Below, piece after piece: positions 50,313 through 58,240 of a DNA stretch of 64,000 nt. The stretch lies in assembly GCF_000943565.1 (NCBI RefSeq), contig NZ_JTDW01000001.1, positions 1 through 64,000 on the forward strand, written 5' to 3'. The notes under the pieces were generated by a model. That model ran no database searches, was not told the origin of the DNA, and saw nothing but the letters and a program-made list of their open reading frames with translations. How positions within the stretch are numbered: position 1 is the first letter of the stretch; every line of letters begins with the position of its first letter. Origin of the DNA: Neotamlana sedimentorum (GTDB lineage: Bacteria > Bacteroidota > Bacteroidia > Flavobacteriales > Flavobacteriaceae). A program made the translations under genes and the position numbers.

Positions 50313-52496
50313 TTAGTAGCAATCACTTTTAATTTGCTGCTTATTTTGGTAATAACTTAAAGGTTTGTTGTTGTATTTTGTAACAATATCTTCAAGCACA
50401 GCCAGCACACTTTTGTACATGGCAAGCGAGCCACAAACCATAATAATACCATTGCCATATAAAGTTTTTGCAATGGCTTCAGCATCATTTAAAAGAAGAT
50501 CTTGAACGTAATGTTTCTCATTTACACGAGATAATGCTAAGGTAAATGAGCTTAATTTTTCAGATGAAATACATCCATCAATTTGATTTTTATAAAGTTG
50601 AAATGAAGCCTCGGTGCGCAAACCTAAATACAAATGCGTTGTTGTATTTTTATTTTGATTAAGCATGCCTAAAAAAGGAGCAATTCCGGTACCGTTTGCA
50701 ATCATTATAACTTTGGAAGCGTTTTTTGGAAAATGAAATGCTGAATTTTTTACCAAACGCGCTTTTATTTTTTCGTTTACTTCTGAAGCAAATAGAAACC
50801 CAGAGCCTAAACCGTTTTTATGAAGTTTTACACTTAATTGAATGTTACCATTTACTTTTCCAATAGAATATAACCGTTCGCGATGATCGTTTTTTGGGTA
50901 AATAGCAAGCAAATCGCCAGAAGTGAACTTATGATGTGTTTTGGGTTTTAAAGTGAGTAAAAACGTATCGTCGGTATTTGTTTTGGTTTTACTTAAAACC
51001 TTTAATTTTTTAAGTTGTTTGGGTTTTGTAGTTAAAACTTGTTCTTCAATTTTAACAGGAATACCAGAAGCATCGCTCCATTGCGAAGTCCATTGGTTAA
51101 AAGCTTCAACCGATTTATCGTTAATGGTAAAAATAGGTAAAAGTTGTTGGTGCTTTTGCTGAAGTGTTTTATCAACATCCATCGCAAATTTGCAAAAATC
51201 TGGATAAGCCAAAGAGCCCAAACCAACTACCGAAAATTTTAAATTGTCTTTTAAATTTTCAGATTTAAACGTTTTAAAGAATTGATTCGCGTTTGTTGGC
51301 GCTTCACCTTGGCCATAAGTTGCGGTTATTATTACCATTTGTTTGGCTTCGGGGAAATTGGTGAAGTTATTCATTTCGGTAATAAATGCGTTTTCCCCTT
51401 TAGAAATTAGGGCTTTGTAAAAGGCGTTGGCAAAAGTAAAAGTACTTCCGTTTTCCGAGCCAACAAGAATTATAATATCAGCCTTATCGGATTTATATTT
51501 ATTTTTTATACGCGTTTTTCGTCGGTTTAAAGTCATCGCGAAGCCCGAATAAATAAAAAACAGAATGTTTATTGAGGCAATAATTAAAATAACCGACCAT
51601 AAAATACTGCCTTTTCCGGTGTGCAGATTTAAACTTAAGCTGGTAAAAATATTAACTAAGGGTGTTTTAGTTTCACTTAAAACAGTTCCAGTAATTTGAT
51701 TTATAAGAAGTTCTTTAGTTTTAAGTGTTAGCGTAAAATAATCTTCAACATCTGGAGAAAAAGGAAATTCTATAGCTTTTACTTCGGAAAGTGGCGTGTT
51801 TTTAAATACTTCAATTTCAGAAAGTTCAACTTTTGGTGTTTCAGAAATAGCGTCAAAATCAATAGCGTGTTCCGTTTTGTTTTCTGGAAGTAATTGAAAT
51901 TTATCGAGCGATAAATACACACCAGTTGCTGTAATAATTAAAATAGGAATTAGCAACAAACGCCCTAAAACCACATGCCAATATTGGTTGAAATTATCGT
52001 TTACAATTTTGGCAAAAAACTGCTTAATAGCACGTTGGCGTTTTAAAATTAAAACGGTTCCTGTAATGGCAATTAAAAACAATAAAAAGGAGCAAAGCCC
52101 AACAAAAAAACGACCAATACTTTTTAAAAATAACGAACGGTGTAAACTGGTTACCCATTGAAAAAACTTTGAAGGTTTAATTTCTTCACCTAAAAATTGA
52201 GCGGTTTTTGGGTTAAAATAGCCCTCTAAATTATCGCCATCTTCTGTAAAAACTGATGCGATAACAAAATTGTTATCATCAACTTTTATATCAATAATTT
52301 CAGGGTAAGTTGCTTTAAAAATCGCAATGGTTTCAGCAACTGTAATGTTGTTAAGGTTTTCGGTGTTGTAGGGTTGAAGTTGTTCTGAAATAGGTTGAAA
52401 CCCTAGAATTATCCCTGTTACCGAAGCAAGTATTATAAAAACAAAAGAAGATACAGCCAAGGCTAAATGGCTGTATCTCCAAATGGAAATGGTCAT
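50313..52496 (-). CDS. PepSY membrane domain fused to flavodoxin and FAD/NAD(P)H reductase
   Basis: 727 residues. An N-terminal PepSY-type part has four membrane segments (about 11-33, 131-152, 173-196, 297-324) with periplasmic loops. A flavodoxin domain starts at about 342 (IIILVGSENGSTFTFANAFYKAL) and a ferredoxin-NADP reductase-type FAD and NAD module spans about 505-720 (RLYSIGKVNG, NGTGIAPFLGML, ICGSLA-like VCGSLAMYKSV). The last two domains mirror the CysJ sulfite reductase flavoprotein. The whole would carry electrons from NAD(P)H through FAD and FMN to the membrane and periplasm. Encoded with HmuY- and TonB-receptor genes, so reduction of ferric iron or heme is a likely role. Final gene of its operon. 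Confidence 0.9.
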   Translation of the reverse strand: MTISIWRYSHLALAVSSFVFIILASVTGIILGFQPISEQLQPYNTENLNNITVAETIAIFKATYPEIIDIKVDDNNFVIASVFTEDGDNLEGYFNPKTAQFLGEEIKPSKFFQWVTSLHRSLFLKSIGRFFVGLCSFLLFLIAITGTVLILKRQRAIKQFFAKIVNDNFNQYWHVVLGRLLLIPILIITATGVYLSLDKFQLLPENKTEHAIDFDAISETPKVELSEIEVFKNTPLSEVKAIEFPFSPDVEDYFTLTLKTKELLINQITGTVLSETKTPLVNIFTSLSLNLHTGKGSILWSVILIIASINILFFIYSGFAMTLNRRKTRIKNKYKSDKADIIILVGSENGSTFTFANAFYKALISKGENAFITEMNNFTNFPEAKQMVIITATYGQGEAPTNANQFFKTFKSENLKDNLKFSVVGLGSLAYPDFCKFAMDVDKTLQQKHQQLLPIFTINDKSVEAFNQWTSQWSDASGIPVKIEEQVLTTKPKQLKKLKVLSKTKTNTDDTFLLTLKPKTHHKFTSGDLLAIYPKNDHRERLYSIGKVNGNIQLSVKLHKNGLGSGFLFASEVNEKIKARLVKNSAFHFPKNASKVIMIANGTGIAPFLGMLNQNKNTTTHLYLGLRTEASFQLYKNQIDGCISSEKLSSFTLALSRVNEKHYVQDLLLNDAEAIAKTLYGNGIIMVCGSLAMYKSVLAVLEDIVTKYNNKPLSYYQNKQQIKSDCY

Positions 52497-52525
52497 ATCT
52501 TAATGTTTTAAGACTTATTTTTTGC

Positions 52526-52553
52526 GTTTGAAGCGATTATGAAGGCTTCAAAC
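52526..52553 (-). other. Intercistronic hairpin between DUF2271 and PepSY-reductase genes
   Basis: GTTTGAAGC (52526-52534) pairs perfectly with GCTTCAAAC (52545-52553). No T run follows on the minus strand. Confidence 0.6.
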
Positions 52554-52564
52554 TTTATAACGAT

Positions 52565-53044
52565 TTAATTAGGCATCATTCGAATGTAGCGAATAAAGCC
52601 TTTGCCTTCGTGTTTTGCTTTAATGTTTGCAGAAGTTAGCTCGAATTGAACATCTTCAACAATGTATTCATCATCTTCAACTGCAGTTTCAAAACGAATA
52701 CTATATCCAGCATCAATTTTAGAATCTTCAATATTTATAACTTCAATAGCACGCTCGCCACCAGCAATAGTTTCACCAGTAATAGCATCTATATTGTTAC
52801 GTTTTTTCCCGTAGAATTTCCACCATTCTTCAACGGTGTTAAACCATTCATCATCATCACCTTTTACATATAAGGTTTCGTCGTATTCGCCTTCTGGATT
52901 AATAAGCGAAATAACTACGTAAGCACCATGACCTGTATAATTTGTCATTTGAATCATGCACTTGTATTTTGTAGATTCTGATGTTGTAAAAGCGACTAAG
53001 CTTAGCAATATTACACTTAAAAGTGTTATATATTTTAATTTCAT
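52565..53044 (-). CDS. DUF2271-domain periplasmic protein
   Basis: 159 residues with a signal peptide (1-22, ending FTTSE). The rest is a small beta-rich domain fitting DUF2271: YVVISLINPEGEYDETLYVKGDDDEWFNTVEEWWKFYGKK and AITGETIAGGERAI. DUF2271 proteins commonly neighbour PepSY-containing iron reductases and flavodoxin-type genes, as here. No metal-binding motif I can name. It lies between the ankyrin gene and the PepSY fusion in one transcription unit, with hairpins on both sides. Confidence 0.78.
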   Translation of the reverse strand: MKLKYITLLSVILLSLVAFTTSESTKYKCMIQMTNYTGHGAYVVISLINPEGEYDETLYVKGDDDEWFNTVEEWWKFYGKKRNNIDAITGETIAGGERAIEVINIEDSKIDAGYSIRFETAVEDDEYIVEDVQFELTSANIKAKHEGKGFIRYIRMMPN

Positions 53045-53061
53045 ATTCGTGTATTTTTTAA

Positions 53062-53080
53062 GATCCTGAAACGCTCAGGA
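53062..53080 (-). other. Intercistronic hairpin between ankyrin and DUF2271 genes
   Basis: ATCCTGA (53062-53068) pairs with TCAGGAT (53074-53080) around AACGC. It resembles the GTCATCCTGAGCG-type hairpins that I recall as dispersed in Flavobacteriaceae intergenic DNA; this needs a search to confirm. No T run on the minus strand. Confidence 0.55.
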
Positions 53081-53094
53081 TGACTATATTTTAG

Positions 53095-54570
53095 TTATTT
53101 TAAAAAGTCTACAGAAACGTTATTCGCTTTAAGTAATTCGTTTTCTTGAGCTAAATCGAAGGCCGTTTCTTCAAAATTGGTAGTAGCAGTTTTGTTTGCC
53201 CCGTTTTTAATTAAATATTTTAAAATTTTATCGTCTTTAGCTTTCATTGCAGCTAAAAGTAAAGCCGTGTTACCTTCACTGTTTTTAGCGTTTATATCTT
53301 GATTAAATTCTGAAGCTAATTTAAGTAACTTAAAACTATTTTTTTCGATAGCAAAATGGTACCAAGTGTTACCATTTTTTTGTGGTGTACTTAAGTTGTA
53401 ACCTAATGTTTTTAAGGTTTCTAATTTTTCAGTGAAATCTTTTTCAGAACGCTTTGAGTAGTTACTAACTAAATAATATGAAAGGTTATTTCCTTTATTA
53501 TCGGTAGCATTTAAATCGGCCTTGTTTTCAGCTAAAAAAGTAACCACATCAGCTTTGTTAGATCGCACAGCAAGCATAAGTGCAGTTTCGCCGTTTTTGT
53601 TTTTTAAGTTGATATCTTTTACGTTTTTATAAAGCGCTTTAACAACACTTAAATCGTTTCTATTAACCGCATTTAAAAATGGCGTATTACCATGTTTGTC
53701 TGTAGCGTTAACACTTAAACCTTTACTTATTAAATAGTTTATAACGTTTACATCTTTGCTACGAGCTGCTGCAATGTGTAAAGGAGTTTGGTTGTCGTGG
53801 TTTGTAGTATTTGGGTTTAAACCTTGGGCTTCTAAATATTTAAAAACACTAACGTCGTTAAAAGAGCGTCTTTGTCCCATGGCAGCAAAAGTAAAAGCTT
53901 GGTCGTTACCTTTTATTCCTTTAGCCATAAGTTTATCTAAAAGTTTGGTGTTACCAGTTCTTGCAACATAGTTAAATGCGCCGTTTCCGTTAGCATCAAC
54001 ATCAGAAAGACTTAAACCTTTTGAAGTAAAGTACTCGGTAAGCTTAAAATCTTCATCTTTAGTAATAGCTAATAATAGGGCATTTGCCCCATCGTGATTA
54101 ACATCTTCTTTTAAATTTGCGCCTTTGGCTATAAGTAAATCGTAAACTTTTGTGTTTGTTACACCAGTGTTTGCTGCAAAATTTAACGGTGTGTAGTCGT
54201 GATCATCTCTAATATCGGTTTTTGCTCCGTTTTCAAGCAAGTAGCTCATAAATTTATCGTTACCACTGTAGGCTGCCCAAAATAAATAGGTTCTGCCATC
54301 GTGTGTTAGTTTATTAATGCTATTACCTTCTTGTTGTTGCATAAACACCAAAGTTTCGTAAGGTGCTTTTTGTAAAATAGCATAAACTAAACCATCAAAA
54401 TGGGCTTGGTTGGCTTCTGTAGGATTATTGCCTTCAGCTATTTTAGTTTTTACTGTTTTTATGGTTGGCTTTGTATCCCAAAATTCGCGTTTTAAAAATA
54501 TGTTGTCCTGCGAAAAGCTTTGTACAGTTACTAAAAGTAGTAAAGCTAAAAGTGATAATGTTTTTTTCAT
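53095..54570 (-). CDS. Periplasmic ankyrin-repeat protein
   Basis: 491 residues with a signal peptide (1-21, ending SFSQ). Almost the whole mature protein is ankyrin repeats of ~33 residues, about twelve copies (DGRTYLFWAAYSGNDKFMSYLLENGAKTD, HDYTPLNFAANTG, HDNQTPLHIAAARSKDVNVINYLISKGLSV, KNGETALMLAVRSNKADVVTFLAENKADL). Such arrays bind proteins or ligands. Its export to the periplasm or outer membrane, two bases after the DUF6607 gene, marks it as a scaffold or binding partner in the heme/iron cluster. Confidence 0.9.
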   Translation of the reverse strand: MKKTLSLLALLLLVTVQSFSQDNIFLKREFWDTKPTIKTVKTKIAEGNNPTEANQAHFDGLVYAILQKAPYETLVFMQQQEGNSINKLTHDGRTYLFWAAYSGNDKFMSYLLENGAKTDIRDDHDYTPLNFAANTGVTNTKVYDLLIAKGANLKEDVNHDGANALLLAITKDEDFKLTEYFTSKGLSLSDVDANGNGAFNYVARTGNTKLLDKLMAKGIKGNDQAFTFAAMGQRRSFNDVSVFKYLEAQGLNPNTTNHDNQTPLHIAAARSKDVNVINYLISKGLSVNATDKHGNTPFLNAVNRNDLSVVKALYKNVKDINLKNKNGETALMLAVRSNKADVVTFLAENKADLNATDNKGNNLSYYLVSNYSKRSEKDFTEKLETLKTLGYNLSTPQKNGNTWYHFAIEKNSFKLLKLASEFNQDINAKNSEGNTALLLAAMKAKDDKILKYLIKNGANKTATTNFEETAFDLAQENELLKANNVSVDFLK

Positions 54571-54571
54571 C

Positions 54572-55477
54572 TTATTTTTTTACAAATGATTCTATTATTG
54601 GATTAATTGTTTCTGCGGAGTTGTAGTTTTCGGCATCGAATAAATATTTATACAATACTTTGTTGTCTACTTTTTCTTCAAGTATTAAATCGGTATTTCT
54701 TGAAAATACATCGTCCCATTTGGCACGAACTATTGCCCATTTAGCTTGGTTTTCTTTCCAGTAGTCTTGAGCTGCTTTACACTTGGTATCATCGACTTTT
54801 ACATAAGTGTTAAAGCCTTTTTCCTGTGCAATAATTACGTCTGGTTTTCCGTCTTCACGAATTACTTTATCGTTGTCTTGGTCGTGAATCCAACCGTTTG
54901 CAACAATTTCGTGTCGGTTTCTTCTGGTAGTTACGTTATAATCGCTTCGTTTTGTGTATTCACGACGTGGTAATGGAGCCGATGTTTCGTTTTCCCAATA
55001 GCTTTTCCCATCAACATGAACCCAGGTTGAAGAACCTTCGTAGCGCGGACTATCATCAACTTGAAACACTTTTTGAGTCCACTGACCTTTCACGTCATTT
55101 TTAGAAAGTTGTACAAAATCCCATTTGTTATCGTGGTTGTACTGGTATAAATTGGTGTTTTGGTATTCCCAATCTTGTCTCCAGTGTTTTACAATATAAG
55201 GTTGTGTTGGCGGGCCAACAATTAATAAATGTTGCATAGATATTTTATTATCTTCATCTTCAACAAGTTGCACCCATTCTAAACCTTTATCATGTTTGGT
55301 TTTAGATGCTATGTAGGTAGAATCTTCAACATACTCGAAAGTTTCAGCAAAATTAAAATTTACTTCATAACAACCACACATGCTTTTAATAGCATCTTGA
55401 TCTTGTTTTTTCTTGTTTTGAGCTATTACCGTAGAAACAGATAATAGTGTTAAAGTTAAAATAACTATTTTTTTCAT
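54572..55477 (-). CDS. DUF6607-family secreted protein
   Basis: 301 residues from ATG 55477; a longer frame from 55504 overlaps the divergent promoter region and lacks a better start. Signal peptide 1-19 (TVIAQ). Mature part begins CGCYEVNFNFAETF, is rich in Trp, Tyr and Asp (KHWRQDWEYQNTNLYQYNHDNKWDFVQ) and ends with IIESFVKK. I place it in DUF6607, a Bacteroidota family of unknown function, from memory of this pattern beside PepSY/HmuY genes. First gene of the minus-strand arm. Confidence 0.7.
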   Translation of the reverse strand: MKKIVILTLTLLSVSTVIAQNKKKQDQDAIKSMCGCYEVNFNFAETFEYVEDSTYIASKTKHDKGLEWVQLVEDEDNKISMQHLLIVGPPTQPYIVKHWRQDWEYQNTNLYQYNHDNKWDFVQLSKNDVKGQWTQKVFQVDDSPRYEGSSTWVHVDGKSYWENETSAPLPRREYTKRSDYNVTTRRNRHEIVANGWIHDQDNDKVIREDGKPDVIIAQEKGFNTYVKVDDTKCKAAQDYWKENQAKWAIVRAKWDDVFSRNTDLILEEKVDNKVLYKYLFDAENYNSAETINPIIESFVKK

Positions 55478-55486
55478 TTTATTTAG

Positions 55487-55515
55487 ATTGGTTTTAAATA
55501 ACATTTATATATTTG
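55487..55515 (+). promoter_or_regulatory. Promoter of the hmuR/hmuY-like arm
   Basis: ATTG at 55487-55490 and TATATTTG at 55508-55515 with 17-base spacing. The ATG is 18 bases after the -7 box, giving a very short leader. Confidence 0.55.
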
Positions 55516-55518
55516 TGA

Positions 55519-55526
55519 CAAATTTA
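55519..55526 (-). promoter_or_regulatory. -7 element candidate for the DUF6607 arm
   Basis: The minus strand reads TAAATTTG here, matching TAnnTTTG. It lies beside the plus-strand promoter, so the two arms would share a 40-base control region. No clear -33 element. Confidence 0.4.
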
Positions 55527-55532
55527 AATAGA

Positions 55533-57611
55533 ATGAGTCTAAATAAAAATAAAATTATAATTTATTTTTTAACTTTTGTAAGTTATTTTGCTGTAGCTCA
55601 AAATGAAAAAACAAAAGTAACAGATTCTTTACCAGAAGCTTTAGAAGAAGTTATGGTAACGGCCACTCGAACGGTTAGGCAATTATCTTCGGTTCCTTTA
55701 CCTGCACAAATTGTATCGAAAGTAGATATTATTCAATCTAACTCCATTAGGTTAAGCGATATTTTAAACGAACAAACCGGATTAATTACCGTTCCAGATT
55801 TTGGTGGAGGAGAGGGCATTCAACTTCAAGGTTTAGATTCTCAATACACTTTAATTTTGGTTGATGGTGTACCGCTAATTGGCCGTTCTGCTGGAACTTT
55901 AGATATTTCTAGACTTACTGTTGGCAACATAAAACAGATTGAAATTGTAAAAGGAGCATCGTCTAGTTTATATGGTAGCGATGCACTTGGTGGTGTTATT
56001 AACATAATTACAGAAAACCCTAAACCAGGTTTTAAAACCGACTTAAATTACAGATTGGGCGCTTTTAATACAAACGATTTAAGTTCTTCAATTAGCTATT
56101 CTAAGAAAAAATTGGCAACTAGTTTTTTTGCAAATAGATACAGTAGTTCTGGTTACGATTTCGACGAAACAGATGCTTTAAATACCGTAGAACCTTTTGT
56201 TAATTATACTTTAAACGGAAAAATAAATTATCAATTTAACGATAAAACATCGTTAACTACTTCTGGACGTTATTATTATCAAAATCAAGATTATGTCGCT
56301 GCTGAAACTATTGCCGGAGAAAGCAACATAAATGAGTGGAATACACATGTAAAACTAAATCATGATTACAATAATAAATGGAGTAGTTACTTAGAGTTTT
56401 ATGCTTCAAGATATAAAGCCGAAGAATATTTAAATAATAATGATGGTAGCTTATACAGCAATAGTTATTACAATCATTTTTTAGTTCGCCCCGAAATTAG
56501 AGCTAATTTTAAACCAACAGCAAAAACAACTTTTACAGGTGGTTTAGGGTTTAGCCATGAAACTTTAGATAGAACTTATTTTACAAGTACCCCAATTTTT
56601 AATTCGCCTTACGTGTATTTACAATATGATGGTTATTTAAATGAAAACCTAAATGTAATTCTTGGTGCTCGTTTCGATAGTCATAATAAATACAAATCTC
56701 AATTTAGTCCTAAAGCTGCTTTGCGTTATGAAATTAATACAAAACTGGCGGTAAAAGGTTCTGTAGGTTATGGTTATAAAGCGCCAGATTTTAGGCAACT
56801 GTATTTCGATTTTACAAACTCAACCGTGGGTTATACGGTTTTAGGATATAACACAGTAACTACAAAAATTCCAGAATTAGAGGAACAAGGAGAAATAGAA
56901 AATATTATAGTTCCAATTTCAAATTACGACGATGCGCTTTATCCAGAAAGTTCAATGAGTATAAATTTTGGTGTAGATTATAAGATTGCTTCTTCTTTAA
57001 AATTATCTGTAAACATCTTCAGAAATTTAATAGAAAATTTAATAAACACCCAAGTTATAGCAACAAAAACCAACGGCCAAAACGTGTTTAGTTATTATAA
57101 TGTAAACCAAGTTTACACAAAAGGTGCCGAGTTTAATGCACACTGGAAACCTAACAATAACTTAAAAATTTCAGGAGGTTACCAATTGCTTTATGCAAAA
57201 GATAAAGAAGCCGAAGAAGCATTTAAGAATGATGAGGTTTTTGCTAGAAACGAAAGCGGATCTTCTTTTCAGCTACAAGAGTCAGATTATTTTGGGTTGT
57301 ACAACCGATCAAGACATATGGCGAACCTAAAAGTGTTCTATAATATTCCGAAAATAAATTTAGATGCAAATCTTAGAGCGACTTACCGAAGTAAATATGC
57401 TTTATACGACAGTAACGATAATACTTATTTAGATGATTACGATGATTTTGTATCGGGTTATTCGGTTATAGATGTCGCGGTAAATAAAACTTTTTATAAA
57501 AATTACACGGTTGGTATTGGTGCAGATAACCTTTTTAATTTCACCGATACTCAAAATATAACCAATATACCAGGACGCATTTTATACGGGAAAATCAACA
57601 TTAAATTTTAA
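55533..57611 (+). CDS. TonB-dependent receptor, HmuR-like heme receptor candidate
   Basis: 692 residues from ATG 55533; the TTG start at 55488 would include the promoter. Signal peptide 1-23 (AVAQ). Plug about 35-165: ALEEVMVTATRT, GEGIQLQGLDSQYTLILVDGVPLIGRSAGTLDIS, SSSLYGSDALGGVINIIT. Barrel to the C-terminal ILYGKINIKF. There is no carboxypeptidase-like domain, as in siderophore and heme receptors. The adjacent HmuY-like lipoprotein gene makes heme the best guess for substrate; the two-His heme motif of classical receptors was not clearly found. Confidence 0.92.
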   Translation: MSLNKNKIIIYFLTFVSYFAVAQNEKTKVTDSLPEALEEVMVTATRTVRQLSSVPLPAQIVSKVDIIQSNSIRLSDILNEQTGLITVPDFGGGEGIQLQGLDSQYTLILVDGVPLIGRSAGTLDISRLTVGNIKQIEIVKGASSSLYGSDALGGVINIITENPKPGFKTDLNYRLGAFNTNDLSSSISYSKKKLATSFFANRYSSSGYDFDETDALNTVEPFVNYTLNGKINYQFNDKTSLTTSGRYYYQNQDYVAAETIAGESNINEWNTHVKLNHDYNNKWSSYLEFYASRYKAEEYLNNNDGSLYSNSYYNHFLVRPEIRANFKPTAKTTFTGGLGFSHETLDRTYFTSTPIFNSPYVYLQYDGYLNENLNVILGARFDSHNKYKSQFSPKAALRYEINTKLAVKGSVGYGYKAPDFRQLYFDFTNSTVGYTVLGYNTVTTKIPELEEQGEIENIIVPISNYDDALYPESSMSINFGVDYKIASSLKLSVNIFRNLIENLINTQVIATKTNGQNVFSYYNVNQVYTKGAEFNAHWKPNNNLKISGGYQLLYAKDKEAEEAFKNDEVFARNESGSSFQLQESDYFGLYNRSRHMANLKVFYNIPKINLDANLRATYRSKYALYDSNDNTYLDDYDDFVSGYSVIDVAVNKTFYKNYTVGIGADNLFNFTDTQNITNIPGRILYGKINIKF

Positions 57612-57619
57612 TATATCTT

Positions 57620-58240
57620 ATGAAAACAATTAAATATTTATCACTTTTAGCTTTATTTATAGGGTTTACATCTTGTAGTACAGATGATGAAAATTCTGAA
57701 CCAGAATTATTAGACACAGAAACTGCTACAGTTAGTAATTTAGCAGCAGTGCAAACGGCAGATTACACTACAACACCTGCAACCATTACAGGCGATTATA
57801 CTCGTTTTTCTTTTGAAAGCGGAAGCATTGTAACAGACGATAGTTGGGATTTAGCCTTCCGTGGCACAACCATTATTGTAAATGGAGGAACTGCAGTTTC
57901 AGATGATGAGCCTGAACGAACTGGAACGGCAGGAGCTTACATTGCAACCGGAACTTTAGATGGTATTACAGAGGTAGATACCTCGTTATTTGTTAGCGAT
58001 AGCGAAACCGATGGCTTAGCTATAACCACTGGTTCTGGCAATGGTTGGTATAGTTACGATTACTCCACACACATTATATCACCAATTGTAGGTAAAATAA
58101 TTGTAGTAAGAACGAGCAGTAACACTTATGCAAAAGTTGAAATTTTAAGTTATTATTTAGATAGCGATACCTCTAGCGATTCGCAGTATTACACGTTTAA
58201 CTATGTGTATCAACCAAACGAGGGAGAAACTACGTTTTAG
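57620..58240 (+). CDS. HmuY-family heme-binding lipoprotein
   Basis: 206 residues. Lipoprotein signal ends FTSC (Cys19). HmuY-like pattern: YTRFSFESGSIVTDDSWDLAFRGTTIIVNGGTAV (residues ~55-90), SGNGWYSYDYSTHIISPIVGKIIVVRTSSNTYAKVEILSYY. In Porphyromonas gingivalis HmuY is a hemophore that hands heme to HmuR. The heme-ligand His pair of HmuY is not evident; only one His (THI) is seen, so the ligand could differ. Eight bases after the receptor stop; a terminator follows. Confidence 0.83.
   Translation: MKTIKYLSLLALFIGFTSCSTDDENSEPELLDTETATVSNLAAVQTADYTTTPATITGDYTRFSFESGSIVTDDSWDLAFRGTTIIVNGGTAVSDDEPERTGTAGAYIATGTLDGITEVDTSLFVSDSETDGLAITTGSGNGWYSYDYSTHIISPIVGKIIVVRTSSNTYAKVEILSYYLDSDTSSDSQYYTFNYVYQPNEGETTF

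Follow-up and report, generated by a model that had tools for sequence, protein, structure and literature searches.

In the marine bacterium Neotamlana sedimentorum, a cluster of six genes in two divergent arms appears to join a known heme-capture system to a periplasmic reductive cassette that does not depend on the substrate, with Fur regulation of the whole and delivery of Fe(II) to FeoB, and we hold this to be the probable reading with moderate confidence. Heme uptake by the locus is well supported by homology, and the reductive step is what we infer for the remaining genes, the cassette probably freeing iron by reducing it. The window analysed here is a stretch of 64,000 nucleotides of contig NZ_JTDW01000001.1, and the cluster occupies positions 50313-58240 (Table 1). 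The left arm reads DUF6607, ankyrin, DUF2271 and a fusion of PepSY_TM, flavodoxin and NAD(P)-binding domains, which we named FLX, with intergenic gaps of 1, 50 and 68 bp, and in the right arm the TonB receptor gene is followed, after 8 bp, by HmuY. A reading made earlier from the sequence alone had proposed a six-gene divergent heme/iron cluster, and this cluster is real, as Pfam finds all six genes and the arrangement is kept across the Flavobacteriaceae. The control region was given there as 40 bases and is in fact 55 bp long (55478-55532), the probable receptor start being the ATG at 55533. The nearest named genomes are those of Tamlana species, and the DUF6607 protein is 100% identical in T. 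laminarinivorans.

Table 1. Genes and candidate control elements of the divergent cluster (positions in the window).
Feature	Position	Strand	Basis
FLX: PepSY_TM + Flavodoxin_1 + NAD_binding_1, 727 aa	50313-52496	-	Pfam
DUF2271 protein, exported, 159 aa	52565-53044	-	PF10029 8e-39
Ankyrin-repeat protein, exported, 491 aa	53095-54570	-	Pfam Ank_2 5e-52; alignment of 15 homologs
DUF6607 protein, RhuH-type haemophore, 301 aa	54572-55477	-	Pfam 1e-101; Foldseek; phmmer
Fur-box-like site ATTTAGATTGGTTTTAAAT	55481-55499	+	15/19 against R. anatipestifer consensus ATTTAGAATTATTCTAAAT
Candidate Bacteroidota-type promoter TTG-N17-TATATTTG, receptor arm	55488-55515	+	Inferred from sequence
Second Fur-box-like site, overlapping the receptor start codon	55526-55544		15/19
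TonB-dependent receptor, HfpR/RhuR-type heme receptor	55533-57611	+	Pfam plug/barrel; TIGR01785
HmuY-family surface lipoprotein, HfpY/RhuA-type	57620-58240	+	PF14064 5e-9

The core of the locus is already known, because the DUF6607 protein is recognisable as RhuH and the layout matches the one published for the duck pathogen Riemerella anatipestifer. A literature search under the name DUF6607 gave no match, since the RhuH paper does not use this name, and the fold search alone gave the link. The AlphaFold model (pLDDT 91.7) had one strong match in Foldseek, the R. anatipestifer haemophore of PDB entry 8xjc (E 2e-33, TM 0.85/0.92, 49% identity), and phmmer aligned the protein with RhuH (8XJC) at 2e-90 across 279 aa. 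RhuH binds haem with a Kd of 3.4e-11 M through His96 and strips haem from hemoglobin (PMC11967795); the aligned residue in the DUF6607 protein is H98, which is invariant in 39/39 aligned homologs. By these alignments the window protein is an ortholog of RhuH and is predicted to bind heme, which ties a widespread Pfam family to the RhuH haemophores. DUF6607 had been counted among three exported proteins of unknown role, a description that fails for this member of a characterised family and stands for the ankyrin protein. The window resembles the Rhu system (rhuH <> rhuR-rhuA; PMC11967795) in having a RhuH ortholog with the ligand His, a divergent receptor with an HmuY-like partner (B739_1417 is annotated HmuY) and a short promoter common to both arms, which in R. 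anatipestifer is bidirectional and carries a Fur box. It differs in that rhuH is followed in the window by the ankyrin, DUF2271 and PepSY-CPR genes, whereas the R. anatipestifer ankyrin row is separate (B739_0173-0177). At loci of other families (L071, L072 and L082), the DUF6607 gene has neither a receptor nor an HmuY or redox gene beside it.

The right arm agrees with the heme or iron uptake proposed earlier, through homology to the Rhu and Hfp heme-capture systems. The receptor matches the TIGR01785 TonB-hemin model at 3e-44, a score under the curated cut-off of that model. The HmuY protein is a remote member of its family, and its model (pLDDT 86) has the HmuY fold, as all Foldseek matches with E < 0.01 were HmuY-type proteins. 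Neither the His-pair nor the Met-pair axial ligands of characterised HmuYs are conserved in the alignment of 16 homologs; W143, Y144 and Y146 are invariant, and a tyrosine is therefore a possible heme ligand. HfpR and HfpY of Flavobacterium psychrophilum (PMC9331221) form an iron-regulated heme uptake system in a 19-kb region with further iron-responsive electron-transfer genes, and HfpY diverges from other HmuYs and binds heme nonetheless. Like Hfp (hfpR-DoxX-hfpY), the window pairs a TonB receptor for heme with a hemophore resembling HmuY, and the two systems share iron regulation and electron-transfer genes nearby; Hfp differs in having DoxX in the operon where the window has the FLX cassette, and the likeness to HfpY is drawn from its published description. 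Two receptor classes alternate beside DUF6607, one HfpR-like with a 205-aa HmuY and the other of ~710 aa, which pairs with a longer HmuY-domain lipoprotein (PF14064) and at times with a T9SS-tailed protein.

The gap between the arms carries matches to the R. anatipestifer Fur-box consensus ATTTAGAATTATTCTAAAT (PMC5609570). Only 3 sites reaching at least 15/19 to this consensus occur across the 64 kb, and 2 of them lie at this gap. Among 100 relatives' loci, 66% have a match of at least 15/19 between the start codons, a level that shuffled sequences reach in 3% of cases and divergent gaps elsewhere in 8%; this test counted strictly intergenic DNA and the best match per locus, because matches overlapping a start codon could mirror conserved coding sequence. 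In Bacteroidota, promoters follow a generally known consensus, on which the TTG-N17-TATATTTG candidate is based, and the Fur-box-like site would overlap the -33 element of this putative promoter. Scans for sigma-70 promoters and terminators gave nothing beyond the level of shuffled sequence. The gap also holds a 13-bp palindrome at 55512-55524, ATTTGTGACAAAT, which was weighed as a possible operator.

The left arm beyond rhuH encodes what looks like an electron-transfer chain. FLX has transmembrane-like segments in its N-terminal half (8-37, 122-153, 172-198 and 294-323) and four histidines that are invariant in 19/19 sequences, of which H10 and H174 are predicted on the cytoplasmic side and H119 and H292 on the periplasmic side. 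The same four-His pattern is found in FoxB (7abw), which separate PepSY_TM relatives match at 8e-25, and also in A6. The C-terminal half matches P450 reductase (CPR), NOS-reductase and CysJ in the PDB. The predicted route is thus from NAD(P)H through FAD, FMN and two b-hemes to the periplasm, and the earlier suggestion that NAD(P)H electrons are used at the inner membrane is borne out, as a prediction, by the FoxB-like histidines and the FMN, FAD and NADPH domains.

DUF2271 is a proven ApbE flavinylation substrate in another species, with the motif [S/T]GA[S/T] (PMC8238504), and the window protein is a candidate flavinylated periplasmic electron carrier. The usual form of the motif is DAITGAT and that of the window is DAITGET; of 25 homologs, 20 have GAT and 5, the window included, GET, and none has lost the acceptor Thr. 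The A-to-E change could abolish modification. The GET variant occurs in several genera (the window and L048, L056, L059 and L062). A PDB sequence search with the DUF2271 protein found no match. The genome has one ApbE, outside the cluster, and one FeoB, also elsewhere. The ankyrin protein is conserved within the cassette in an alignment of 15 homologs.

The linkage of the two arms, which the sequence-only reading had offered as one of two tests of itself, was confirmed by a survey of conservation, as both arms are present in 62 of 80 named loci and FLX plus DUF2271 stand beside RhuH in 67. In a family sample of 101 genomes, DUF6607 and DUF2271 occur together in 28, DUF6607 alone in 12, DUF2271 alone in 8 and neither in 53 (Fisher 6e-9), and the corresponding counts for DUF6607 and HmuY are 37, 3, 10 and 51 (6e-15); the arrangement is therefore not due to chance, the genomes being phylogenetically non-independent and the counts uncorrected for shared ancestry. 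DUF2271 is thus missing from 12/40 genomes with DUF6607. Among loci sampled one per genus (n=38), DUF6607 adjoins a receptor and an HmuY-type gene in 32, FLX and DUF2271 are present in 23, and both arms in 21; FLX is absent from 14/38, and every directly adjacent receptor is divergent from DUF6607 (29/29). Across the phylum, the receptor/HmuY link is kept in 14 of 20 loci and the FLX cassette in 1. A DoxX-type membrane gene, usually beside HmuY, is found only in loci without FLX (L031-L170), at 6/14 without FLX vs 0/24 with FLX at genus level and at 7/13 vs 0/67 in the named loci; the DoxX-type gene may replace the FLX cassette. Two further neighbours recur: DUF6686 (~118 aa) beside DUF6607 or FLX in loci L032-L090 (e.g., L041:14407-14763) and even at the distant L076, and a DUF4856 gene with two partner genes, which often adjoin the cassette (L042, L056, L105, L118 and L179).

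The ankyrin-DUF2271-FLX trio also occurs without DUF6607, behind a TonB receptor of ~804 aa and a lipoprotein (L171, L172, L176, L177 and L181). This lipoprotein matches the xenosiderophore lipoprotein XusB (profile, 2.5e-6), which works with XusC, a PepSY partner of XusA/XusB described as an iron-siderophore reductase (PMC13142918). The trio is a separable cassette and is probably not specific for heme, because it also adjoins this siderophore-type receptor pair; the earlier reading had overlooked this. Where the cassette is missing, RhuH repeatedly adjoins other redox parts, namely FMN_bind with a GAT motif (L033, L034, L035 and L078), PepSY_TM with a separate flavodoxin (L076 and L079) or PepSY_TM alone (L073). 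The repeated presence of these parts beside RhuH, together with the trio behind a TonB receptor and an XusB-like lipoprotein, points to iron reduction. In R. anatipestifer, B739_0173-0177 are up under iron limitation and are annotated as receptor, hypothetical, ankyrin, 'predicted periplasmic protein' and 'nitric oxide synthase' (PMC5429918); from these names and their order, B739_0174, 0176 and 0177 would be the XusB-like, DUF2271 and FLX genes. As this ankyrin row lies at a different locus from RhuH in a species whose RhuH works, the cassette is outside the minimal Rhu system.

The same distribution bears on a rival explanation, in which the cassette is a general ferric (siderophore or citrate) reductase that has a Fur promoter in common with the heme genes and does not handle heme. 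The RhuH-less XusB-like loci and the 14/38 RhuH loci without the cassette are in its favor, and ferrisiderophores are the substrates of those PepSY_TM reductases that have been studied best (PMC13038864). We nevertheless think it rather unlikely, since the cassette is co-directional behind rhuH in most loci and other PepSY, flavodoxin and FMN_bind genes recur beside RhuH in other lineages.

Genes for heme breakdown were sought genome-wide with profiles. Heme oxygenase (PF01126), HemS (PF05171) and CobN/HmuS (PF02514) are absent from this 99.9%-complete genome, in a search confined to these three families. Two earlier statements are thereby upheld, that no heme oxygenase is seen and that the system differs from the hmuYRSTUV operon of Porphyromonas gingivalis, with which the window shares HmuY and a TonB receptor; the genome has no HmuS (CobN), and RhuH and the reductase cassette are found instead. 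One clear FecCD permease lies elsewhere in the genome and was set aside as a possible heme ABC transporter, since it is flanked by two proteins of the Peripla_BP_2 family, a receptor of 623 aa and a lipoprotein with DUF5074; by its content this locus looks like B12 uptake.

In the reading that we prefer, a heme-capture system coupled to a reductive cassette of broad substrate, the HmuY-type lipoprotein and RhuH would take heme from hemoproteins and hand it to the TonB receptor, which would bring it into the periplasm. FLX would pass cytosolic NAD(P)H electrons via FAD, FMN and two transmembrane b-hemes to the periplasm, presumably in that order, and DUF2271, if the sole ApbE flavinylates its TGET motif, could relay them to ferric heme or a ferric chelate. 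The ankyrin protein may dock the partners or carry heme, and the reduced iron would enter through FeoB. The cassette may act in this way on heme-derived iron; reduction could release labile Fe(III), loosen the grip of the hemophore on heme or feed a dechelatase. Reduction of heme alone leaves the iron in the porphyrin, so a further enzyme would be needed if heme and not labile Fe(III) were the substrate. A more specific proposal is that in flavobacteria the dedicated transmembrane NAD(P)H reductase, the flavinylated DUF2271 relay and the ankyrin protein reductively free iron in the periplasm from heme that is imported or bound to RhuH or HmuY. Heme iron would then be gained with neither a heme ABC importer nor a heme oxygenase, and behind an XusA/XusB-like pair the cassette would serve siderophores; we put this forward tentatively and regard it as doubtful.

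Two other explanations fit poorly. The reductase and ankyrin protein might keep imported heme reduced and chaperoned for the safety of the envelope, with iron released elsewhere, and Campylobacter Cj1386 is an ankyrin protein that serves as a hemin-trafficking factor. Such heme tolerance is most improbable, because iron scarcity induces the related hfp promoter and a supply of heme or haemoglobin limits it (PMC9331221), whereas a response to heme stress would run the other way. In the second explanation, the cassette would metalate or repair redox enzymes of the envelope rather than serve nutrition, a role suggested for CrpH with copper in heme-copper oxidases. The non-iron roles of some PepSY_TM proteins (PMC13038864) accord with this explanation, which is very unlikely given the Fur box, the linkage to TonB receptors and the rise of the probable R. 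anatipestifer homologs under iron limitation.

The reductive cassette has relatives in two other groups of systems. Flavinylated PepSY-like systems (DUF2271/DUF4198/PepSY_TM; PMC8238504; Caulobacter CCNA_03155-03159) likewise combine PepSY_TM and an NAD-binding domain with DUF2271 and a link to iron or Fur, whereas the window cluster lacks DUF4198 and apbE, has a fused flavodoxin and an ankyrin partner and carries TGET. The ferrisiderophore reductases FoxB, XusC and HiuB share PepSY_TM, the four heme-ligating His (FoxB and HiuB) and an adjoining TonB receptor; the window differs in its fused C-terminal CPR-like electron input, and the accessible parts of the sources on XusC and HiuB do not describe DUF2271 and ankyrin partners such as those of the window. 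The loci compared here show one redox cassette being exchanged between heme uptake and siderophore uptake, and its linkage to RhuH supplies a concrete and testable candidate for the missing step in the route to heme iron past the outer membrane in aerobic Bacteroidota. A second PepSY_TM protein (371 aa) is encoded behind an NTE-type TonB receptor (L189:6229-11233; C1:126228-131232 of the same genome, outside the window). A flavodoxin gene in divergent orientation and a gene of the Fur family lie next to it, so that the locus resembles the same design in split form.
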